Source: a virus
Length of the DNA: 64,000 bases
IMG/VR virus record: IMGVR_UViG_3300025543_000016
Span: 1 to 64,000 of that record
Strand: one strand, 5' to 3'
The notes beneath the pieces were generated by a model. That model was given only the letters and a program-made list of their open reading frames with translations, did no database searches and was not told the DNA's origin. Position 1 is the first letter of the stretch; each line of letters starts with the position of its first letter. Both the position numbers and the translations under genes were made by a program. Shown here in pieces: positions 1 through 60,918 of this stretch.

Positions 1-3000
1 TCATTAGCTAATTCAGGACTTTGTATAGGGTCTACTGTAAATATGTTTTTTTCACCAACAAACTCTTTAAATCCTTCTACATCTTGTTTAGAACCTAATA
101 TATGAATTTGTTCTGGTTCAAATACTAAGAGTTCTCTTTTACCTTGTAAAGGTGTTATATCTAAAGCATCAAAAGTTTTAGAATCTAATTGTTGTTCTAA
201 TTTTTGTCTATTACCTGTTGCATAAGAGATAGAATACCCTGAATAGTTTTCCTTTTTTATAAGTTCTTTTGAATTTATAACTGCTGATATTATTTTGCCT
301 TTTCTGAAAGGCTTAGCTTCAAATTGAAAATATATAGCATGGGGGTTATCTTCCTCTTTTACTAAAGTATGTTGATTAAAGATATTTTCTTTTACATCTA
401 AAGGTTTTTTAAAAACATCAAAATCAAAAGGTGTTGCATGATAAACAATATCTTTTACTTGACTCTCAGGAAATATAGTATCAAGATATTGAGAATATTG
501 TTGTTGAGCTTGTTGTTTTTGTTGTGGAGTATACGGATTGACTACTTCAAAATATTCTCCCTTATCTACAGCGTATCCTTCATTTACTAATTTTTGCCAA
601 ACAGAATTTGCTTTATCTCCAATATGGTCTTTACCAAAAAATTCAGACTTTAAAGTAATTCCTTCTTTTGATAACTCTTTTGCTATTTGTAAATATACTC
701 TTTTACCATATCCTTTTCCTTGAAATTCTGATTCTAATTCTATACCATAACTACCTATACTTCCTGAAATAAAACCTTGTTTAGCAATAGGTAATTTATC
801 GCCACCACGTCTTTTGGTTATTGTAAAACTACCTGCATATTCACCATTAATTCTAATTGGATGAATATCTCCTTCATAATTATCATGGTCAAATGAACCT
901 TTACCTATTGTAATTTCTTTATCATTAAATCCAAAAGCCTCATAAACCTCATTAGCTAATTCAGGATTAGATTCAAATAGTTCTGATACTCCTTCTTTAA
1001 TTTTATTAGTTTGTTGTGTGGGTTCTTTTTTATCTATTACATTTTCAATTTCATTTATTGTATCTTCAACTTCATCTGCTTTAGTCATTTTATATCCAAA
1101 CAAAGTAATTTCACCATATAAAAATTGCTGAATATTTTTATTTTCTACCCATAAAACAAGCTCTCCAACTTTAACTTTAAGACTAAATTGTTTTGTTCTT
1201 TCCATAGATACACCTTTACCCATAGATTCAACAATGTCTTTTAAATTTTCTGGTGTAACTTTAATTGGACCAAGTGCTTCTAATTGATACAGTCCTGATT
1301 GTTTTTTATTTTGTATAGTAACTATACCTTTAATACCCGCAGTTTCTGCTCCAACAACTGCTGCTGCTTTATCGCTAACATATAAAGTAGATTGTGTTCC
1401 ATCTAAAATTCTTTGCGGAAGAGCTTCTTGTTTAAATGTAGGATTTTTTAATTGAGTATTAGTATCACTCTTAACAATAAAATCAGTTAATAAACCACCT
1501 ATTTCATTAAACTTAAAAGCTCTACCATAAATAACATTATCTTCTTTATCTAATTTATTTATGTTATAACCTTCAATGTTTCTTTCTTCTTCTGGTATAA
1601 GTGATTCACGTTGTATTCTTTCAAATTCTCTATTAATTTCTTCATAAAATAAATTAATAGCTTCATCTGTAATTTTTGTATTTCCATTTTTACCTAATTC
1701 AACTGTTCTAATTACAGGTAAATTTATTAAATCACCAGTATTAGATGCTTCAATAACTCTAATTAATACAGGAGCTAATGTAGTACTAACTACATCTCCT
1801 GTTTCTGGGTCTATAAATTCAACTTTGTTTTTATTTTGCCTAGTTAAACTTTGATAATTTGCTAAATAAGCATTAATTAATGTAGCTGTAAATTCAGGTC
1901 CTTTTAATCCACCATATGTTTTACCTTCTTTATCTAAAATTATACCTCTATTTTCACTATCAAGAACATCTTCAGTTGTTGAAGGTAAAAAGCCATCTTT
2001 GGTTCCTGCAACTCTTAATACTTGAAGTCTTTCTTCTTTTGATAATGTTAAAAAAGCAGGGCTATTTAAAAGAATATTTGTTATATTAAATCCGTTATCT
2101 AATTGTTTTAATTCTTCTAATTTATTAGAATCATTTAAGTCTTGAATTTCTTTTAAATGAAAAGTACCCATTTGATGAGCGTAAACAAAATTACCTTCAG
2201 GATTTAAAAATACACTTTGTCCAATTGTTTCATCAAACATTGCATTTGATTTAGCAAGTTTTTGTAAACGACTTCTAGCACCACTACCTTTTTTATTAAA
2301 TAAATAACCAGCACCTGTATTACCTTGTGTACTTAATTTAACTTGATTAGATAATTCTATAATAGCATCTGAATCAATAGCTTCAGCTTGTTTGTTATTA
2401 TTAATAACTTGATTTAAATAATCATTATTATTTAAATTGTCTGAATTATTTAAGTTAGATATAATGCTAAATTCAATATAAGAAGGGCTTATATTTATAC
2501 CAAGGTTTTCATAAATGTTAAGTGATAATTCTTTAGCTTTATTTTCAATTTGATCAATTAAATCAACTGAATTTAAATCAAATTCAGCTTCAGTATTATC
2601 TAATAAATAAGCTAAATCAGATAAAGAATCAGCTGCTTTGTTTGCAGAAAAATCATCTTTTTTAATAGTATTATATCTAGAACTGTAACCTTGTTTCCAA
2701 ACATCAATTTGATTAGTTGCATCATCTCTATTTGAAGCATTATAAATAAGCACTTTTTTAATAACATCACTTTGAGATGCGCTATGTATAAATAAATAAT
2801 CAACTTTAAAGTTTTCAAATCCTTTATAGATTTGCATAAATAAACTTGTATTTTTTATTTCTTCTAATACATCTTCTCTTAAACCTGTTCTTAATGTTTC
2901 TCTTGTTAAACCTATATCATTAAACATTCTATTTACAACAGCATGTGTTTGTTTATTTCCTTTAGAAAACGCATCCATTGCACGTAAAAAATTAACAGGA

Positions 3001-6000
3001 TCATTAATGTTTTTAACTCCTTTTAATAAACCGTTATATGCGCTTTTAAAATCAACTGGTGTATATATAGGATTTCCTGATGGTAATTTTGTATTACCAA
3101 ATTCATCTTCAGCTAAAAGCATTGTGGTTCCAATATAAGCTCTTAAAGCAGTTGGTAAATTGCTAAAACCACCAATCATTGATTGATCTTTATCCCAATC
3201 AGAAACATTTCTTAAACCTTCAAACTCTTCAAACTCTTCATTGAAGTATTCTTTATCTTTAATTTGCTGATCAAATAAAGATATGTATTCTGTTATAGCT
3301 TCAGTTGCATTTTGTTCAAATTCAATCGCTTGAGTTATTACGTTAATATCTGCATTATCATCTTTACCACCTAAAGCGGTATATAATTTATCTAATTTAA
3401 TTAAATCTTCACCTGATTTATAGGCATTAGTTAAACTAGCAGGATTATATAAAGATCTAAAGTCTTCTATTGTTTCACTTAATATGTTAGATCTTGATTC
3501 TCCTACTGTAATATTTTTTACTTTAGTTAAATAAGAAGCTGTAATTTGACGTATAACTAAATCAGCAGTATCCGGATCTAAATATTTATTTGCAAATCCT
3601 CTTTCTAATTCTACTTTAGCATATGTAAGTACTTTGTATGCTTCTACAACAACACCTGTATTAAATTGATTGGTATAAATATTATTAACAGAACTGCTAG
3701 ATTTATATTTACCGGCATCAATGTTTTCAAACAAAGTATTTAATTCATTTTTATTATACTTGCTAAATACAGATTTAATCCATTCAATAAATCTTGTAAA
3801 TAAAGATTTAATTACAGGGGATGTTTTAGTAGCGCTTGGGTTAGTTTTAAAAGTTTCAAATTCATCAGCTAAATATTCTTCCAAATATTCTTTTTCTAAC
3901 TGAGCATTTGTCATGCTTTGATACTTTTCAGCTCTGCTTTTAAATTTTTCTAATTCAAGTTTATAGTTTTTATTTTTAGCTTTAAGTTTAGCAATTACTT
4001 CTGTTTTAGCAATAGATAAATACTTTTTAATTTCAGCATCTGATAGTAACAATCTAAATACAGAATGAAACGCTTCATGATATCTAAAACCTTTTTCGCC
4101 AACATAAATTGTTCCTCCTATTTCAACGTTACCTGCAAGTTTATTTAGCTCCATAATAAATACACCAATAGGCATACCTTGAACTTTTAATTTAGCAGCA
4201 ACTTCTTTTATGTTTTTAATTTGAACAAAGTCAGGTAAATTTGCTTGAGCCCAAGCAATAAATTTATCAATAGCTTCTACATCTTCAACCGTAAAATCAT
4301 CACTTACTAATTTTGGAGCATATGCATTTAACTTTCTTTCTATTACTGTTAATTCACTTGTAAGTTTTTTATATTGAGGATCATTCTTTTTAACAGCAGC
4401 GTTAAGAAATTCTAAAGCTGTCATTTGACCTGAATCTTTCATTTCTTGTAATTCAATCAGTCTAACTTTTACCTCTTCTTTTTTAACATCATATTGATTT
4501 TGTAACTGAACTAATTCAGATTCAACATTTGAATTAGCTTTTATTTCATTAGCTTTATATTCAATTAAAGATTTTCTATTACTTTTAAGAATTATGTTTT
4601 CTCTTTCAGTTAAATTTTCTAAACCTTCTAATGCTAATTTGTTAGCTAAATTATTAATATATTCTTTTTCTAAAGTATTAAAATTAGTTTTTAAATAAAT
4701 ATCAAACTCTTCATCTGTTAAATCATTAACGTTAGATGTAGAATCCAATACTTGATTTATTTCATCTAGTTTATCCTTAACATCTTTAGTAACTGTGCTC
4801 TTATCATTTTCATCAGGTAAATTATCTAATAATGCTTTTCCGGTTTTAAGTTTATTTACATCGTCATTACTAAATTGAAATCTAACACTTAAATCTTCAA
4901 ATAATTCTTTTTTTACATTTGTAACAGCAATTTCCATTACTTGATCTGCAGTTAAATCATCATTAATAAATGTTTTAACATTATCAATAGAAACAGAAAT
5001 ACCTAAGTTTTTAGTGTCTTTACTTGTTTTAGTCACATCACCAAATACTTTAAGTAATTCAGTAAATGTCATTTTTTCTAAAGTGTCAACTCTTAAAAAA
5101 GCATCAATGTTTAATTTTTTTTCTTTGGCTCCTGTGCTATCAATATATATAATTTCTACACCACCTTTTGCTGTTACTTTAATCTCAGCATCAATACCTG
5201 GTTTAATAGAAATATAAAATTTAGAATTAAATTCATCATTAAATGCATCATTAAAATCAGAATTTAATTTATTACCATCTTCAGATATATTTTCATCAAT
5301 TGTTTTTTTAGCTTGTTTAATAAGATCTTCCATTAAACCTTCATGATTTTCTACAGGAAGAGCTGTAGATTGCAAAGGAACAAAAATAATTTTTCCGTTT
5401 GGTATTTTAACTACAGCATGATATCTATCTTTTCTTTGGCCAACATAATCTAATAAAGTTTTACCTACTGAATTATTAGTTTCATTTAATTCATTTAAAA
5501 TATCATCTCTTAATTTTTTTTCTTCAGGAGAATTCTTTTTATAATTAGTTATGTAACTAGTAAGTTTTTTTCTTTGTTTAGTTTTAGAATCATAACGTAA
5601 TCTAGTATCAATAATAAATAATTCACCATTAATTGTGTTATATTCTAATTCAGATAAAGAATTTATACCATCTCTTGCAACATCAGTTTTAGTTTGATAT
5701 GAAAATCTATATGCTGTAAAAAAATCAGGAGCAACTTCGTTTAATGGAATTTCAATAATATTATTATCACCAAGTTTTTCTAATAAAGCTTGTCTTAATA
5801 ATTCTTGTTGAGCCATTGCATTTAAAGACTCATCTTTTTTTACAAAATATTTAGCAGCATCGCTATCGCTAAGAGTATAAGGATTTTTAATAACTTGACC
5901 ATCTTCAGTAAGTAATTCAATATTACCAGAAGGAATTTGCAAATTTATATCATCTAGTGTACCTGCATTTCTTTCAACTAATAAAGCATTAATTTTTTTT

Positions 6001-9000
6001 CTTAAATCTTGATCTTTTACAACTATACGGAAGCTGTGTGTTTCACCATTAAGTTTAATTAATTTATTTTGTTCTCTACCTGGAGCTGAATGAAATCTAT
6101 GATTAGAGACATTTTCATTTTTTTCTACAAGAATTGATAAATTAGAAAGTTGTTCTTTAGTTAAAAATTTAAATATAAGATCTACAATATATCTTTGTCT
6201 ATCGCTAGATTTACTATCTTCAGCTGTCATTGGATAAACATCACGTATATTTCTTACAGTAAGACGAGCTCTATTTTCATTTTTTAAATTATCAGCAAAG
6301 TTTTCTTTTATTAATTCATACTGAGATTTAAATTCGGATTCAGTTACTTTAGCTGAAACTTTCAATCTTTCTTTAGTTGTCTTAGCTGTTTCAAGTTTAT
6401 TTTCAGGTAATAAATATAATTTACCTCCTGGATTTACTGTTGATGGAGATCCTAATACAACAAATCTTTCTTTTTTTTCATTTATTACAATATCACCATA
6501 CTTAATAGATTTATCTCCAAACTCAAAAGGAACAGTATCAGGAATTATTTTCTTTAGGATTATGCCAATTTCTATTGCTTTTTTACTTGTTGGAAAAGCA
6601 CGTTGTTCTACTCCTGCTGCTTCATAAAAACTATCAGATAATTCATCACCATTTATATCAACTATTTTATAATAATTATTTTCTTCATTCTTTTCTTTTA
6701 TTTCAACAACATAAATATTAGAAGTTATTTTTTTTATAAGTTCTTGATTAGGTTTTAAATTTAATTTGGAATTTTTAGTTATAGGACCTTTTAAAAATTC
6801 AAATGTTAAACCTGCATTTAATACAGTATCTCTTAAAGCAGGATTACTTGAATTATTATTAATCCATTCAGCCATTCCAATTTCATTTCTAATAATATTA
6901 GCAAAGTCTTTTTGTTTAGGGTCTAAATTTTGAACCCATAACTGTTTAATATCCATTAAATAACTAGCTAATACTTGAGCTTTTTCAGTTGCTGACCATT
7001 TTTCTAATGATAAAGGTTTTTTATTTAATGATAATTGTTCTGTTGCATACTCTGTATATTTTCTTTTTAATATATTTTTAGCATAATTATTTACGTTATC
7101 ATTATTAATAACTTTATTTGCTTTATCTGCTTTATCTTTATTATCAGGTTTATTTGTAGAATCATCAACAAAATTTCCAAATCCATCATCAGCTAATTCT
7201 TCCTCTACTACTTCAGGTTCAGTTAGTTTAATATAATTATTTTTGTACATTTCAATTGTTATCATGAGCTTTGGGTTATTCATCATGGTTATTTCACCAC
7301 GCTCATCATAAAAATTAACTAATACAATTGAATCTCCATTAGCTAGAAATTCTTTAGCTTGTTCAGCATCAGGTAAAGCTCCTTCATCATCAATTAATTT
7401 TAATAATTGACTTGCTAATTGTTTATCAGAAGATCTTTTAATAGCATCTCTAATTTCAACTCTATCTTGAGCATATTTAATTTTAAAATAGTTAGCCGTT
7501 TTATCAGCAATATCATTAATTACTTCAGGATTAGTTAAAATTTCAGCAGCTTTATCATACATTTTAGTTCTATACTGAAGTGTACCATAATCTACAATTT
7601 TCTTTAATACGGAATTAATTTTATTTTTATCAACAAAAGCATTATTTACTTTTGCTAAGTAAGCAATATAAGCTTCAAAAGAAGCTTGTAGTTTAGCAAC
7701 TTTTCTTCCATCAAATTTACCAGTGCCTTCTTTTTTATTAATTGATGTTTGATTTTCTTTTGCTGTTACTACTTTATAATAGTTATTAAGCAACTCTTTT
7801 CTTTTTTGTTTTTGTGCTAAAAGTACGGAGTCTGCTTTAGAATCTTTTAATACAAATATTTCAGCATCTAAAATCTCTAATTCTTGTTTTAGTGTTTCAG
7901 GATCTAATAAAATTCTTAAATCTGAAGCTTGAAGTTTAGACATTTTAATACCTGTATTATCTGCTTTATCTTTAGATGTATAAATTAAATCATCAACAGC
8001 TAATTCATTAGTTATTGTTGCCATTCTACTTAATGAATCTTCAAAAGATTGATCATTAAATGCAGCTAAATATATAGCATGTTGATATGCTCTTTGTTTA
8101 ATTAGTTCATCTAAATAATCTCTTGAGTTTGGTTCAAATTGACTTGGGTCAAAAGGATTAGGATTTTTATTTAATCTATCTGTTAGCCTTTCTTCTATTC
8201 TATTAGATTTAGTTAAAACATTTTGAAGTCTTTCTCTTATTTTGCCATTTTTAGCATCTTTAATTTGAGTTGGAAAAGCTTCAGCTAATTCTTCATCAGT
8301 TAATTTTAATAAGTCTTTTAATTGATCTCTAAAAGGATCTATCATTCCGTTATCAATTAACGTATGTAATTGATTAAACTGAATAAAATCTTTGTTATCT
8401 TGAAAGCCTAATGTGTCTTGATCATAAGCTGATTTATTTTGTGCAGCGGCGGCTTGTCTTTTAGCAATAAAATTTAAATTAAAAGTATCAAGCACTGATT
8501 TATCTTGAATATTATTCCATGTTTCATTAGCAATATTAACAAGTTTATCTATAGATTGTTCTCTTTCTAATTTATCTTTTTTAAATTGTTCAGCATTAAA
8601 TACTATATTACCAAGTGATGGTATATGCTTAAAAGTTAAAGTACCAAGTGCATTCATAGGACCTCCCATTGCAAATCCAGACATAAAAGTTTCAAAACCT
8701 TGAGCCCCTAGCTGGCTAGTTACAGCAGATGATATTGCAGCGTTTTGTAATACTTTTAAATCTTGAGCTGGGTCTTTAATTAATTCAGTATAGTATTCTG
8801 AAACTCCATGGGAAAGAGCTTCTTGAAAAAGTTCTTGACCACCTTCAGCTAAGTTAGCTGCAAAATATCTTAAAGCACCATGACCACCTGCAGTAATTGT
8901 TCCTGCTACACTATAAGATTTTAATCTTTGACTAAGTCCTTTTGTTGAATATCTAAATGCTTTTTTCTCAAAAACATTTTGAGAAATTTTACCGTCTTTA

Positions 9001-55796: not shown

Positions 55797-56039
55797 AGTA
55801 GTTATTTTATTTGTTATAGGAATACATCCTTATTAATATACTAATTTAAAACATCAAATATAATTATTTTTTTGATCTGTAACAACAAGCCCCCCTTCTT
55901 ATACAAAAAATAATGACCCCCCTGGTACTTATAATTATTTATGTATTGCATAGGCTAGGGGACATAGGATATTGCTCCCCTCCTAAATATTGAGCGGTAT
56001 GTACCCCGTATAAGTCTAACATTTAAATTTTTAATTACC
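55797..56039. promoter_or_regulatory. Divergent control region between late and early modules
   Basis: A 243-bp gap between outward-facing genes. It holds six-C tracts at 55890-55895 and 55917-55922, four-C tracts at 55977 and 56004, and an AGGGG/CCCCT inverted repeat (55957-55961 with 55977-55981). The tract starts are spaced 27, 60 and 27 bp, and three are followed by TTATA or GTATA. Such tracts are rare elsewhere in this AT-rich window. Likely holds the early promoter(s), regulator sites or an origin; which of these cannot be told by eye. Confidence 0.6.
55831..55844 (-). promoter_or_regulatory. Late promoter-like motif for first leftward gene
   Basis: Minus-strand TTAGTATATTAATA, a variant of TTTTGTATATTA, 35 nt before the ATG at 55796. 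Confidence 0.4.
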
Positions 56040-56384
56040 ATGAAAAATCAAGTTTATTTCAGCAAGATGAGAGTAAATGCTAACACGAAAAACGTAACCA
56101 TTTACGTCACATCTGAACCAAGGCAACGCAAAGACCTAAAAGTCTTAGGTTTTGCCATGGCACTACGCGTCCAAGACAATGTCTTGAATGGTCAGCTTAA
56201 TCTAGTAGACCCTGAAACGGGAACTAGCATGAAGTCTAACCATCCCTTGGTACAGAAGATGCAATCATCTCTTAAACCAGGAGACGCTATGCCAGGATTA
56301 ACAATAAATCCTGACAACCCAGTGACAAGCCTTGAAACAGGCGAGCCACTACGTAACCTGTATTGGGTAGAAGCAGCAGTATAG
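56040..56384 (+). CDS. First rightward gene, unknown function (114 aa)
   Basis: A 114-aa protein, beta-rich with MRVNANTKNVTIYVTSEP, LKVLGFAMALRVQDNVLNG and a C-terminal ETGEPLRNLYWVEAAV. Its G+C content and codon choice (CGC, GTC, CCC) are clearly higher than in the AT-rich small genes that follow, which may reflect strong expression or a different origin. An OB-fold nucleic acid-binding role is possible given the strand pattern but is not shown. It begins right after the C-tract control region. Confidence 0.75.
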   Translation: MKNQVYFSKMRVNANTKNVTIYVTSEPRQRKDLKVLGFAMALRVQDNVLNGQLNLVDPETGTSMKSNHPLVQKMQSSLKPGDAMPGLTINPDNPVTSLETGEPLRNLYWVEAAV

Positions 56385-56796
56385 CTGCTTTGACCCGCAA
56401 AGGTTTAAATTAATAATGAAAGATCGCCTGTTACGCACAGCTACCAGCTACCAATAACCACAATACCAGTTAGAAAACAATACAGAATATAGTGAATGTT
56501 ATATGTTATTTTTATTTATTTGTGTGTTGAGTTGTTAATAGGTCATCATATAAGCCATAATCATTGGTTGTATGCTTATCATAATAGCAGTCACACAGTA
56601 TAATATAAATATAGCTATAATAATTACGTGCACTCAACAAGCACTCAAATTATAATTGCATTGTGTATTATGTTCTTCTCTCTATGTATCTATATAAAGA
56701 GTAGTATAATATTACCCGCAATATCAAAACAGGCACATAGACAAATACCTGTATAAATTATGTATTATTTTATTAATCACCTAAAGCTGAAGAGCA
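56385..56796 (+). other. 412-bp non-coding stretch with inverted repeats
   Basis: No credible gene. Seen: TGTTGAGT (56525-56532) pairs with ACTCAACA (56632-56639); inside it ATAAGC (56550-56555) pairs with GCTTAT (56574-56579); and ACAGG (56729-56733) pairs with CCTGT (56748-56752). Fits a long structured leader for the following gene or a separate RNA. The first bases carry GACCCG, which also occurs in two other gaps of this module. Confidence 0.5.
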
Positions 56797-57084
56797 TTGT
56801 ACTACAACATTATGATAAATACAATTAAAGTATATCCGCATACATACATGGATAGAGCAGAAGGAGATCATTTCAAAGCTTTTCATATAGCTGATCTTAT
56901 TCATCAGGGAATTATGAACTTCTTGACTAATAAGTTAGGTTCTATAACCTTTAATGATATTAGTACTAATGAAAGTTATGAAATTGAATTAGTTAACGTT
57001 GATGATAGAACATTAGATGAAATTAAACTAATGTATCCAAATATATCAATGAGAACTCTTTGCACTTATAAAGACTGGTGCTAA
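56797..57084 (+). CDS. Early small protein, unknown (95 aa)
   Basis: A 95-aa protein (start possibly at the second Met, IMINTIKVYPHTYMDRAEGD). It has a mixed helix/strand pattern, FKAFHIADLIHQGIMNFLTN in the middle and ends CTYKDWC. No known domain was recognised. The stop overlaps the next ATG (TAATG), so translation of the 42-aa protein is coupled. Confidence 0.65.
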   Translation: MYYNIMINTIKVYPHTYMDRAEGDHFKAFHIADLIHQGIMNFLTNKLGSITFNDISTNESYEIELVNVDDRTLDEIKLMYPNISMRTLCTYKDWC

Positions 57085-57212
57085 TGTTCTTTGAAGATGC
57101 AGAATTTGCTTGGGAGCTCTATAAGATATCTCCTGAGCTAACTTGTACTTGTGATGAAGTACATGTATGTCAACAGTGCTATAAAGAATGGCAAGAAGAC
57201 TTAGAAGAGTAG
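57084..57212 (+). CDS. Small Cys-motif protein (42 aa)
   Basis: A 42-codon gene in TAATG overlap with the gene before it. The product has CTCDEVHVCQQC (residues 21-32), which gives Cys/His ligands for one zinc ion, in an acidic helical context (MFFEDAEFAWELYK). A host-directed or regulatory microprotein is plausible; function unknown. Confidence 0.6.
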   Translation: MFFEDAEFAWELYKISPELTCTCDEVHVCQQCYKEWQEDLEE

Positions 57213-57384
57213 CCTGTCAGCTTATCTTCGTACACGTTAGGTCCAAGTATGGCCGTTGGGTTTGACAACCCTGAACCGTGTATTTGACTTGTCTGTGGTA
57301 TATGTAACAGTCACCGTCAACCGGGTAAACGGTCGTTAAGAGGTAACCATGCTCTTTATTTTTTCACCTTAAAACAAAAACATC
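57213..57384 (+). other. Structured 172-bp gap
   Basis: Higher in G+C than its surroundings. TACACG (57231-57236) pairs with CGTGTA (57277-57282) around the hairpin GGGTT-TGAC-AACCC (57258-57271), and ACCGT (57313-57317) pairs with ACGGT (57329-57333). It precedes the 58-aa membrane protein gene, so it is a leader RNA or a small RNA. Confidence 0.5.
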
Positions 57385-57561
57385 ATGCTAACAAGAATCT
57401 TAGTAGTGCTATTAACAATATTTGTAGCATTTAACTGCTTTAGAGCAGGACATTATGCATCACAAGGAGGAGATACTGGAAGTGCAGTGTTACTCTTCAT
57501 TATTGGTGTTGCATCTTTATATATACCATTAATCCTAAAAGAAAAACCTAATAATACCTAA
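57385..57561 (+). CDS. Small membrane protein (58 aa)
   Basis: A 58-codon gene (MLTRILVVLLTIFVAFNC at the N-terminus). Two hydrophobic segments, ~4-18 and ~34-51 (AVLLFIIGVASLYIPLI), are joined by a Gly-rich loop (AGHYASQGGDTGS); the end is charged (KEKPNNT). Likely two transmembrane helices in the host inner membrane. The position in the early module suggests host takeover or superinfection exclusion, but that is a guess. Confidence 0.6.
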   Translation: MLTRILVVLLTIFVAFNCFRAGHYASQGGDTGSAVLLFIIGVASLYIPLILKEKPNNT

Positions 57562-57566
57562 ACATC

Positions 57567-57638
57567 ATGAGAATATATGTAAAAAATCCAGGCAGATTTG
57601 CCAAGTACAAGGATCAAGTTGTACTAACACACTTATAA
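57567..57638 (+). CDS. Possible microprotein (23 aa)
   Basis: Starts 5 bp after the previous stop, with the same AACATC-ATG leader style as the preceding gene. The product is MRIYVKNPGRFAKYKDQVVL plus THL. Basic and very short; may be a leader peptide. Low confidence. Confidence 0.3.
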   Translation: MRIYVKNPGRFAKYKDQVVLTHL

Positions 57639-58375
57639 TAATTATTACATGAATATATATTTATATAGCTACAAAGATCATAATTACTGTAGTTGCAAAT
57701 AGATATTTATTGTTATCTCTCTCTATAGTATTATATGTCTTATTACTTATAAGAGAAGTATTATATCAACCGTGATGTTGTAAAAATATTAAACACTTTA
57801 AATCAGCTGTCTATATAGATAAGAGTTCAAAGCCTCTATAAATGATGATGAGAGTGTATTTAGTTAGTTTAGCATTTAAGTCTTATTTATAAGCTTTGAA
57901 GTCCAGCTGACAAATGACAATTAACACATTTACCACTTTGAACAGGTAAATGCTAATATCAGTCATTTGTTAACATGTACAAACACTAAACCTAAGAAAC
58001 TAACGATTATGTGATACCTATTTAACATAATGACGAAAAGTAGGGAGCTTTTAATATTATTCTGTATTAATTGCTATATCTTCAAATGTGAGAAACTTGA
58101 AGATGAATCTCATTAAACATTGAGTAAACATTATAGAATTGCAGTTTAGTAGCTGTAAATGTTTTTACTAACTCAATGTTTATTAAATATTACAAGTGTG
58201 TAGGATGCTAAAAGGCTAGACCACTCTGACAGTTAAACTCTGTTGGCACACTTGTTTTATTTTTATTACATTAAAGACAACCAGGAGTCTATAAAATAAC
58301 CTTTTGATAAGACTGGACGAAATATTACATTAACTATAATTAATATCAAGGTTTAACAATATAAATAACAATATT
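57639..58375 (+). ncRNA. 737-nt non-coding array of nested hairpins
   Basis: No frame longer than ~17 codons was seen. At least six inverted-repeat units are present. (1) 57803-57910: TCAGCTG/CAGCTGA, TTCAAAGC/GCTTTGAA and TATAAAT/ATTTATA stacked. (2) 57910-57970: ACAAATGAC/GTCATTTGT around ATTTACC/GGTAAAT. (3) 58006-58031: ATTATGT/ACATAAT. (4) 58078-58104: ATCTTCAA/TTGAAGAT. (5) 58114-58182: TAAACATTGAGT/ACTCAATGTTTA (12 bp) around AAACATT/AATGTTT. (6) 58192-58255: ACAAGTGTG/CACACTTGT followed by a T-rich tract. The density and nesting argue for a transcribed structured RNA. I do not recognise it as a known family; large phage RNAs such as GOLLD or ROOL are possible comparisons. Confidence 0.6.
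58192..58265 (+). terminator. Possible terminator of the hairpin array
   Basis: ACAAGTGTG pairs with CACACTTGT (9 bp) with an inner ACAG/CTGT helix, followed by TTTATTTTTATT. The loop is large, so it may be a structural domain of the RNA instead. Confidence 0.4.
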
Positions 58376-58609
58376 ATGTCACATAATACAACTAAAATAA
58401 TAACAGCAATTGCAATACAACTACTATCACAACATAGTGTTAAAGTGATTGAGGGGTATAAATTATCAGTTATAACTAGTTATACATCTGAATTAGAAGA
58501 TATATCTAAAAAATATAACTTAAAAATGGTTGAGTCATTTAATCAACAATTTACTGTTCAAGGTATATTTGAAGTAACAAATAGTACTCATCATACTATA
58601 ACATTATAA
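58376..58609 (+). CDS. Early small protein, unknown (77 aa)
   Basis: A 77-aa protein with an N-terminal helix (KIITAIAIQLLSQHSVKVI) and a middle helix (SELEDISKKYNLKMVESF), then strands (FTVQGIFEVTN). It fits a small alpha/beta fold. No motif was recognised. It follows the hairpin array; the sequence just before it (58280-58316) contains CCA-GGA-GTC that can pair with GACTGG. Confidence 0.6.
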   Translation: MSHNTTKIITAIAIQLLSQHSVKVIEGYKLSVITSYTSELEDISKKYNLKMVESFNQQFTVQGIFEVTNSTHHTITL

Positions 58610-58625
58610 TAGAATAACAACATTA

Positions 58626-58658
58626 AACCTGACTAGAGATAACATCAAAGGTCAGGTT
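58626..58658 (+). promoter_or_regulatory. Leader hairpin
   Basis: AACCTGAC (58626-58633) pairs with GTCAGGTT (58651-58658), an 8-bp perfect stem around 17 nt, located 23 nt before the next ATG. May control translation or mark an RNA processing site. Confidence 0.5.
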
Positions 58659-58681
58659 ATTAAAAACAAATAAATAATACT

Positions 58682-58921
58682 ATGAACATCACATTAATTT
58701 ACCTCGTAACAACAGATAATGGAGAATTACCTGAATTTGCAACAACTGAAAGATTATTAGCAGTAGTTGATAATGAAAAAGATTTACATACAATAGTAGA
58801 TAAATATCATACTGCTGAAAGAAATTATAAAGCTGATGGAGATATTCCTCAATATCTACAAGATTTATATGATACAGAAATTAGAACTGAAGAAATTACA
58901 CTTAATCAAGAAATAGAATAA
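58682..58921 (+). CDS. Early small acidic protein, unknown (79 aa)
   Basis: A 79-aa acidic protein: a strand-rich start (NITLIYLVTTDNGELPEF), then helices (ERLLAVVDNEKDLHTIVDKY), ending in a Glu-rich tail (IRTEEITLNQEIE). No known motif. Small acidic early proteins in phages often inhibit host enzymes, but nothing here proves that. Confidence 0.6.
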   Translation: MNITLIYLVTTDNGELPEFATTERLLAVVDNEKDLHTIVDKYHTAERNYKADGDIPQYLQDLYDTEIRTEEITLNQEIE

Positions 58922-59106
58922 GTGTATTTAAAAATAACGGCAGGTGGATGTATTATTCCTTAAATGAAAAGACTGCACAGACCCGTAAAGTCGGGTGGAT
59001 ATATTGTGATTATTCCACAATGACTTAGAGCTGAAATTCAAAGTAAGTAGCCCTTTAAGGTAGGTAGGTAAACCTTTTTAAATTAAATCCAATAAATAAT
59101 AATATT
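58922..59106 (+). other. Structured 185-bp gap
   Basis: Hairpins: ACCCG (58981-58985) with CGGGT (58992-58996); ATTGTG (59003-59008) with CACAAT (59016-59021); and AAGGT (59057-59061) with ACCTT (59072-59076) followed by TTTA. GCAG/CTGC may close the first part. Local G+C is raised. Possibly a small RNA or a structured leader for the next gene. Confidence 0.5.
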
Positions 59107-59487
59107 ATGAATATTCAATTTGAAAAAAAATGGGATAATATGTCTCAAGAAGAATTAGTAAAAAAGATTAAAGCTGTAAAAAGCCAACTCTTTGCTCTTC
59201 AGTATCAGTTACACGCATATAATGATGGGTATTTATACCTAACATGTTTGCGTAGCTATGGTTCTTTGTCCTGGGAAACTCATATTAATGAGTATACAGT
59301 TCAAGAACTTTGTGACCAGTATGACGGTTATGATGGAATAGTAGATGTTTATACTACTAATCCTAACACTACTGTTACTACTGAGGGATCTGTAGAAATA
59401 ATGACTCTTGATGAAATTAAAAATGTTTCTCAAGATAACATTTCCATGTCAGCAGCTGTAAGTAACTGGATTACGAAGAGTATGTGA
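59107..59487 (+). CDS. Early protein, unknown (126 aa)
   Basis: A 126-aa protein with an N-terminal coiled-coil-like helix (SQEELVKKIKAVKSQLFALQ), a Tyr-rich middle (YQLHAYNDGYLYLTCLRSYG) and a Thr/Val-rich C-terminal half. No domain was recognised. Codon use is slightly more balanced than in the later AT-rich genes. It lies between two structured non-coding stretches. Confidence 0.65.
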   Translation: MNIQFEKKWDNMSQEELVKKIKAVKSQLFALQYQLHAYNDGYLYLTCLRSYGSLSWETHINEYTVQELCDQYDGYDGIVDVYTTNPNTTVTTEGSVEIMTLDEIKNVSQDNISMSAAVSNWITKSM

Positions 59488-60027
59488 TTAAGATGGGGGC
59501 TTATTATTAGCCTGGCAACAGAAAAATTTCACCTAAGCATGTGTCTAAACTGCTTTATAAACTCTCATCCAATTGCAGGTGTTATAGCAATAACAAGAAG
59601 AATTTATAAACAAACATTTATATTATTAATATTTAAATCACCCAGAAAGAAGAAGGGTTAGTGTAAATAAATAAAAATATAGCACGCTTTCTGGTAGTGA
59701 TTTTACTGACAGAGTGGGAAGCCCACATCTTAAAATAAAACATTATAATTAAACATTGAACCAAGTGAATAAGGGACCAATCCTGCCAGCAAATTTGGTG
59801 TGAGTTGATAGCTGGTATTCACATAAAGATACTAATCCTGAATTGACAGGTTCTAATAGTAAGGAAACTTATGCTATTATTGAGAGAGTAATCTTAGTTG
59901 TGTTGTTCCTGTTGAAAGGAATGCGGGGATAAATAGAGATAGAAGTTGCTAACCGTAACTCTACAACACAGATGTCTCAACATCATCTTTAGGTTCAATG
60001 TTTTTTAATATAAAAAAATATAATACA
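59488..60027 (+). ncRNA. ~510-540-nt structured non-coding region
   Basis: Multiple helices: AAATCAC-CCAGAAAG (59635-59649) with CTTTCTGG (59687-59694) and GTGATTT (59697-59703), 15 bp with a 2-nt bulge; GTGGG-AAG-CCCAC (59714-59726); GTGAAT/ATTCAC (59765-59770 and 59817-59822) enclosing GCCAGC/GCTGGT; TAATAG-TAAG-GAAA-CTTA-TG-CTATTA (59854-59879), a hairpin capped by a GNRA-type GAAA tetraloop; TGTGTTGT/ACAACACA (59899-59906 and 59963-59970); and GATG/CATC (59971-59984). A tetraloop-capped hairpin among long-range pairs suggests a folded RNA, not random DNA. Its family is not recognised. Confidence 0.55.
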
Positions 60028-60231
60028 ATGAAAAAAACAAAAATAATGTTAGCAATAATAATAACATTTCTTACCACTTGGTTTGTAGTAACTTTAATTA
60101 CTTATATGTTAAGTAGTGATATAAGTTTAAGAAAAGCTGCAACAGAACATTTTACTTTAATAATTATGGTAGTTTTTGGGTGGATTCCTTCAGTTGTAAT
60201 TGGAATAGATCTTGACAAAAAATTATATTAA
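60028..60231 (+). CDS. Small membrane protein (67 aa)
   Basis: I prefer the ATG at 60028 (MKKTKIMLAIIITF) over an in-frame ATG at 59998, because the Lys-Lys start before a hydrophobic segment is typical of membrane proteins and the intervening codons are poor. Two transmembrane helices: ~6-26 and ~44-61 (LIIMVVFGWIPSVVIGI). An early membrane protein of unknown role. Confidence 0.6.
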   Translation: MKKTKIMLAIIITFLTTWFVVTLITYMLSSDISLRKAATEHFTLIIMVVFGWIPSVVIGIDLDKKLY

Positions 60232-60253
60232 CAAACATTTAAATCAATTTAAT

Positions 60254-60535
60254 ATGCAATTTACATTTATAATACATGATTGGCCATTTCGTAAATATAA
60301 CAACCAAGTTGTTATAATTATATCAAATGAAGGAAAAAAGTCTTTAATATTGGATCAACAAGGTGATTACAATACTATAGAAACTACAAAACTTAAAGAA
60401 GTTACTCGTGAGTATGTAGAAAAAATGGTCATTAAAAATCAATTATTCCGTGAAATATGTTCAGATGAAGGTTTAATTGAAGTAAAATACCAAGATTCAA
60501 TTGGTTATTTATCATATATAAGTAGTTATATGTAA
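60254..60535 (+). CDS. Early protein, unknown (93 aa)
   Basis: Start taken at 60254 (MQFTFIIHDWPFRKYNNQ). An upstream in-frame ATG at 60212 lies inside the previous gene and its added residues look like read-through leader. Strand-rich start (VVIIISNEGKKSLILD), helical middle (VTREYVEKMVIKNQLFRE). No domain recognised. A strong terminator follows. Confidence 0.6.
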   Translation: MQFTFIIHDWPFRKYNNQVVIIISNEGKKSLILDQQGDYNTIETTKLKEVTREYVEKMVIKNQLFREICSDEGLIEVKYQDSIGYLSYISSYM

Positions 60536-60541
60536 AATTTT

Positions 60542-60577
60542 AATAGATGAAGTTGTAATGACTTCATCTATTTTTTA
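60542..60577 (+). terminator. Strong intrinsic terminator
   Basis: AATAGATGAAGT pairs with ACTTCATCTATT, a perfect 12-bp stem with a 7-nt loop, followed by TTTTA. Ends the unit containing the 93-aa gene. Confidence 0.9.
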
Positions 60578-60600
60578 TTAATATTATAAACTTAAACATT

Positions 60601-60759
60601 ATGCAACAACAAGAAGAAGAATGTCAGTATTTCTATATTAAAAACGGTGTTGAATTTGTAACACCATCATTAGAACATGCAATAGAAAAATGTACAACAA
60701 ATATTATTAAAGTAAAATACGGTAATAATACAACAGCAGAAATAAAATTAAAAAATTAA
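60601..60759 (+). CDS. Small protein, unknown (52 aa)
   Basis: A 52-codon gene starting MQQQEEECQYFYIKNGVEF, with a helix and a final beta-like stretch (NIIKVKYGNN). It follows a terminator and leads an operon in which the next gene starts 3 bp after its stop. Function unknown. Confidence 0.55.
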   Translation: MQQQEEECQYFYIKNGVEFVTPSLEHAIEKCTTNIIKVKYGNNTTAEIKLKN

Positions 60760-60762
60760 ATT

Positions 60763-60918
60763 ATGATCAACAAAACAAAATTATTTAGCAAGTTTAAAGA
60801 TTTTTTTAACAAGTTTACTTTCATGGGAGGCAAATTCATAGGAATTGGTATAGTTTGGGATAATTGTGACATAGCTCTTTGTTTACCTTTAATTGTAATA
60901 TCATTTAAATATAAATAA
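60763..60918 (+). CDS. Small hydrophobic-tail protein (51 aa)
   Basis: A 51-codon gene: a Lys/Phe-rich N-terminus (KLFSKFKDFFNKFTF), a Gly-rich stretch and a hydrophobic C-terminal half (IALCLPLIVISF). It could be a membrane-associated or amphipathic peptide. The stop overlaps the next ATG (TAATG). Confidence 0.5.
   Translation: MINKTKLFSKFKDFFNKFTFMGGKFIGIGIVWDNCDIALCLPLIVISFKYK

Follow-up and report, generated by a model that had tools for sequence, protein, structure and literature searches.

Background and Genomic Setting

GOLLD and ROOL are large folded noncoding RNAs of phages (PMC12286853). Prophages with multiple hammerhead ribozymes carry several of them on one transcript, which is predicted to be cut into units (PMC3088659). 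Retrozymes and viroid-like circular RNAs have self-cleaving ends that are fit for ligation (PMC4918200, PMC7761336). The locus described here resembles each of these systems. The purpose of many self-cleaving ribozymes in phages is unsettled, and this locus poses a concrete question: which product matters, the RNA that would be set free or the cleaved mRNA? If the former, large phage RNAs can gain exact ends without host nucleases. If the latter, the two ribozymes serve as a signal for processing where the early operon begins. We found no description of two ribozyme classes bracketing a gene-free RNA in the open literature searched, which may not include works behind a subscription, for instance those that first reported RAGATH and twister.

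The window, that is, the whole stretch of 64,000 nucleotides that was analysed, comes from a 65,784-base IMG/VR virus record. Its portal, terminase and major capsid matched PHROG head and packaging families, and relatives of the terminase and portal are present in the other phages compared. From gene content and arm layout, we infer that the phage is crAss-like. The structural genes form a leftward arm up to about 55.8 kb, and small genes form a rightward arm from about 56.0 kb, which is probably the early arm. In the region of the first right-arm gene (114 aa; 56050–56450), both strands fold above chance in 150-nt windows (z to −6). A noncoding element at 57195–57384 ends in a hairpin and a T-run; its conservation ranges from 86% (phage G021) to 94% (phage L321), and a 29-base part of it is found exactly in 16 IMG/VR contigs.

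We compared the window with L321, a 92 kb record whose terminase is 85% identical. Positions 6087–6522 of L321 share 94.3% DNA identity with 57199–57634 of the window, and the similarity ends abruptly inside a gene. The breakpoint lies at 57634–57636, and weak similarity is seen again from 60652. Between them, an accessory segment of about 3.0 kb (57636–60650, + strand), with several small genes besides the ribozyme locus, replaces about 0.33 kb of L321. The interrupted gene is intact in L321 (94 codons), and in the window only its 5' remnant is left (57567–57638, + strand; 23 codons followed by a stop); the remainder was not found within the window. L321 has no ribozyme locus, nor does the more distant G021. 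Thus, the locus is accessory, having been either gained by the lineage of the window or lost by the other, and the truncated gene favours a putative gain.

The first gene after the locus (58376–58609, + strand) encodes 77 aa; it has no assigned family and no homologues in IMG/VR. A DNA similarity search of INPHARED gave no match; the collections may omit records very near to the window, so that failing to find near copies carries little weight. The terminator scan found none, and the sigma-70 promoter scan was uninformative.

Ribozyme Sequences at Either End of the Locus

The first-pass annotation recognised no RNA family in 57639–58375 and proposed an Rfam search and a covariation test. The Rfam search corrected this view, because it gave a RAGATH-1 hammerhead (57.0 bits) and a type-P1 twister (46.6 bits).

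The RAGATH-1 hammerhead (RF03152; 58274–58352, + strand) is the only Rfam family in the window to reach its gathering threshold (cmscan, gathering 56.3 bits). Besides this score, it resembles RAGATH-1 in having stems I and III, a pseudoknotted stem II, a catalytic core and an NUH site (AUC). Stem I (AACCUU/AAGGUU, 58298–58303/58348–58353) and stem II (CCAG/CUGG, 58281–58284/58313–58316) are both complete. Hammerheads cleave 3' of NUH, and self-cleavage is predicted between C58347 and A58348. The core of the window reads U3(58304) U G A U A8(58309) A against the usual C3 U G A N G8 A, with the other core bases kept. Among 18 RAGATH-1 sequences, the core pair 3–8 was C-G in 15 and U-A in three (the window, L235 and L237), and no mixed pair occurred. 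Stem II also varied across the set (CCAG/CUGG, CUAG/CUAG, CCCGG/CCGGG and CCGGG/CCCGG). Hammerheads with U3-A8 are found in nature, and activity in vitro was reported for hammerheads with this pair (PMC3088659). The locus also differs from the usual RAGATH-1 in having a long noncoding stretch, not a gene, ahead of the ribozyme. A first RAGATH search pattern was dropped since its matches were mostly chance, and a sequence-only model (R1, from alignment A1) was set aside since the alignment was poor outside the core. No pistol ribozyme matched in the window or its relatives, and the control gave no match either.

The type-P1 twister (RF03160; 57795–57855, + strand) was detected by cmscan with permissive settings (E = 2.8 × 10−8 in 5.1 kb). 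It matches the full length of the model (1–68), and its score lies below the gathering threshold of 67.2 bits, as do those of numerous other phage twisters in this analysis. A nested covariance model cannot score the T1 pseudoknot. P1, P2, P4, T1 and the conserved UAA, AAGCC, UAAA and GA.G are all present in the window, with P2 at 57802–57805/57843–57846. We take T1 to join YCM, a loop triplet within GUYCMAAGCC, to the NGR triplet of GANGR. In the window its pairs are U57827-A57851, C57828-G57850 and A57829-U57849, all of them Watson-Crick, and two of the three are compensatory with respect to the consensus. In the IMG/VR twisters, U at the first Y faces A and C faces G, apart from two U-G; at M, C faces G and A faces U; mispairs are absent. 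The combination of T1 (U-A, C-G, A-U) and P2 (AUCA/UGAU) in the window is unique among the twisters collected.

We tested covariation of P4 and T1 over 20 distinct twisters. Of all cells, 99.3% were paired, and 38 were double-changed against 12.5 after shuffling (0/500 as good), a signal that collapsed when the pairing was slid. T1 alone was 100% paired, with two of its three pairs double-changed; the search pattern had fixed or narrowed some of the positions without forcing pairings. Covariation was positive for both ribozymes (20 twisters and 18 RAGATH-1 sequences). The U-A step near the 5' edge is the cut site of twister (PMC6154101), and self-cleavage in the window is predicted between U57799 and A57800. 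Both cut sites are predicted to single-base precision. As concerns the mechanism and ALTERNATIVES, it is very probable that both ribozymes are active. Separately, arrays of five and eight type-P1 twister matches were seen in L239 (G055) and L255 (G069), some about 600 nt apart with small ORFs between them.

Fold and Coding Content

The description of 57639–58375 as a stretch with no gene was borne out. It holds no ORF of at least 60 aa, and a hidden gene is ruled out since the largest ORF within it is at most 28 aa on either strand.

In this interval the + strand has a folding energy of −163 kcal/mol; its z was −6.0 against 20 shuffles and −4.5 against 60, and the − strand has z = −1.5. Nearby coding and other noncoding stretches gave z from +1.5 to −2.0. 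Single 150-nt windows reach z of only about −3; thus, the fold signal is cumulative. The proposed array of hairpins in this 737-nt stretch stands for 57795–58263, not for the two ends. The first 156 nt (57639–57794) are at chance level (z = −0.83, 79/400 shuffles as good). The nested fold of the last 79 nt (58274–58352) is no better than chance because this part is a pseudoknotted ribozyme.

The arms listed previously were all found, among them 58114–58125/58171–58182 (12/12 complementary), 57823–57845/57881–57903, 57910–57918/57962–57970, 57927–57934/57945–57952 and 58185–58200/58247–58262. The hairpins at 57823–57903, 57909–57972 and 58112–58184 each folded better than 500/500 shuffles; such single hairpins were picked after the fold was known, and their z-scores overstate significance. 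The one at 57909–57972 (+ strand) has two stacked helices (−18.5 kcal/mol, z = −5.1, 0/500). The long hairpin at 58112–58184 (+ strand) has inner helices within the 12-bp helix (−21.7 kcal/mol, z = −4.7, 0/500). A branched hairpin, after which the DNA is T-rich, lies at 58185–58263 (+ strand; z = −3.0, 4/500), and its side arm with a 7-nt loop has a faint likeness to a tRNA T arm. However, this loop (about 58228–58244) is too weak to name, and neither ARAGORN (tRNA, tmRNA) nor Rfam (tRNA) gave a call.

When the ribozymes are excluded, a structured noncoding core of 418 nt is left (57856–58273, + strand; z = −5.1, 0/150 and z = −4.2, 0/100). Its − strand is also above chance (z = −3.0). No alignable homologue of the RNA body was found among the phages compared, and the bodies of the window and of L235, L237 and L347 had only short AT-rich words in common.

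Related Phages

RAGATH-1 hammerheads lie near the head of the rightward arm in L347, L235 and L237, whose terminases are 24–32% identical to that of the window. The noncoding stretch ahead of the hammerhead is 288 nt in L347 (z = −8.7 and −9.5), 615 nt in L235 (z = −2.1) and 734 nt in L237 (z = −1.6). The L235 hammerhead is at a contig end, and its stem I is therefore only putative. The scan of L347 covered RAGATH-1, twister-P1 and pistol.

The pair of ribozymes recurs in G113 (97.8 kb), which has a twister-P1 (57.5 bits) followed by a RAGATH-1 directly after an arm-head gene, a position matching that in the window. Thus, the order and place of the ribozymes are common to two divergent phages, and the same pair stands at a matching place although the terminases are only 27% identical. 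The predicted excised piece of G113 is 234 nt, and an ATG lies 21 nt past the hammerhead cut. An ATG about 20–30 nt past this cut is common to the window, L237, L347 and G113. Elsewhere, RAGATH-1 and twister-P1 lie mostly beside small genes, and several other RAGATH-1 begin just about 10–50 nt 3' of a gene. Among 49 capsid relatives, neither ribozyme was found.

Several other RNA elements were noticed. An intergenic hairpin, AACCTGAC-TAGAGATAACATCAAAG-GTCAGGTT, occurs at 58626–58658 of the window, at about 11184–11216 of L347 and at about 2300–2335 (− strand) of L237. Its inner part, CTRGAGATARYATCAAAGG, occurs in many IMG/VR phages (L391, L393, L395, L398, L400, L406, L409) with differing complementary stems. 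The hairpin has the appearance of a covarying RNA element of phages that is new to the literature. A few CTRGAGATARYATCAAAGG matches appear to be coding (GDNIKG, flap-endonuclease-like). The 20-mer AACTCTCATCCAATTGCAGG is identical in noncoding DNA of the window (59557–59577), L235 (9936–9955) and L302 (1803–1822), and is followed in the latter two by a T-arm-like TTCAARTCC hairpin; its locus is possibly a second structured RNA. At about 10002–10063 of L235, shortly 5' of the hammerhead, a tRNA-like fold has a 7-bp acceptor, a canonical T arm and a short anticodon arm, and received no call from ARAGORN or Rfam. Another capsid relative, L308, has a freshwater-1 RNA at 8033–8094 (78.4 bits) near two tRNA matches.

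Proposed Mechanism and Alternative Explanations

We suggest that the locus is a cassette with two ribozymes, set close to the start of the rightward (probably early) arm, and that its likeliest role is to yield an excised large RNA comparable to GOLLD and ROOL. Each ribozyme would cleave in cis the rightward transcript that contains it, the twister between 57799 and 57800 and the hammerhead between 58347 and 58348. As these cuts fall at the 5' edge of the twister and the 3' edge of the hammerhead, both ribozymes would stay on the product. The predicted excised RNA (57800–58347, + strand; 548 nt, 29% GC) would have a compact ORF-free core, a 5'-OH and a 2',3'-cyclic phosphate. It would be freed from both the truncated upstream gene and the downstream mRNA, which would keep a 28-nt leader (58348–58375, + strand) before the ATG at 58376. 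This leader is near-identical in L237. The sequence 57800–58347 folds with z = −5.2 and −4.9 in separate runs. The first-pass annotation had proposed either a single large folded RNA or a set of small processed ones; the ribozymes at both edges of the fold point to the former, with self-made ends.

A segment at 57881–57908 (+ strand) is complementary to the twister core. Their duplex has −30.5 kcal/mol against a shuffled mean of −15.8 (2/2000 as good), and 4/1608 nearby windows equal it, some of which overlap the segment itself. The minimum-energy fold of the released RNA employs this segment, and its pairing with the twister core would dismantle the ribozyme. Once the segment is transcribed, the twister core may pair with it, and such refolding would make twister cleavage one-way and co-transcriptional: the cut would come before the ribozyme is dismantled. 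The released RNA could then be ligated to a circle. It is from sequence that we infer cleavage, release, refolding and the released RNA as the functional product.

The excised RNA is favoured by the well-folded 418-nt core free of ORFs, by the structured RNA of L347 and by GOLLD in a neighbour phage. However, the G113 piece holds little besides its ribozymes; the large RNA is therefore no constant part of the cassette. The twister score below gathering, the weak folding in L235 and L237, the signal on the − strand of the core and the frequent placing of ribozymes between genes in other phages also speak against it. In an alternative reading, the ribozymes would do no more than divide the early transcript into mRNAs that decay independently and fix where the following mRNA begins, with the core as a dispensable, well-folded spacer guarding the exposed ends. 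Hammerheads around prophage genes have been proposed as processors of long transcripts (PMC3088659), and twister-P1 and RAGATH-1 flank small ORFs in L239, L259, L097, L236 and L256. The short inner part in G113, the unalignable body between phages and the recurrent spacing from cut to ATG fit as well. However, a pure spacer would not require 418 nt and a z near −5, the window lacks a gene between its ribozymes, and the L347 RNA ahead of the hammerhead folds even more strongly. We therefore consider transcript splitting a less probable purpose, and weigh the excised RNA above it.

It is quite improbable that a host RtcB-type ligase closes the excised RNA into a circle that spreads like a retrozyme or viroid. 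The predicted ends are of the type joined by such ligases, and the locus is an accessory insertion. The junction AATATC/AAATCA restores neither hammerhead stem I, which needs AAGGTT, nor the twister U-A step; thus, a circle would escape re-cutting. However, the direct repeats of one ribozyme that define retrozymes are lacking, the insertion boundaries (57636, about 60650) differ from the ribozyme cuts, and no copy was found elsewhere. Still less credible is that ribozymes and hairpins are inactive relics brought by recombination. The truncated gene and the sub-threshold twister would fit such decay, but T1, P2 and the hammerhead core have changed in a compensatory manner and stem I is complete, which indicates selection on pairing. 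Returning to the excised RNA, we tentatively raise the idea of a novel class of phage noncoding RNA that excises itself, in which two unrelated ribozymes would free a large structured RNA, possibly circular, near the early-arm head of crAss-like phages.

Comparison with Known Systems

GOLLD and ROOL had been named as the nearest concept. As an assignment this fails: neither GOLLD (RF02032) nor ROOL matched in 55800–60900 at E ≤ 5, and the same library and mode detected GOLLD in L311 (G031). As a comparison it gains from that phage, a relative in which GOLLD lies in the same arm (about 2692–3650; match 3149–3554, 83.8 bits, gathering 150, E = 3 × 10−20), about 2.4 kb downstream from the counterpart (homologue) of the 56040 gene. 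The window differs from GOLLD and ROOL (PMC12286853) by the lack of any sequence or covariance match, by its predicted ribozyme-made ends and by having no tRNA.

A retrozyme needs the same hammerhead twice, as direct repeats; this identity was rejected, since the window has one hammerhead and one twister. Compared with retrozymes and viroid-like RNAs (PMC4918200, PMC7761336), it has two different ribozymes in a single DNA-phage copy with no sign of replication. The prophage hammerheads (PMC3088659) are of one class and surround protein genes, whereas in the window two classes surround a gene-free RNA.
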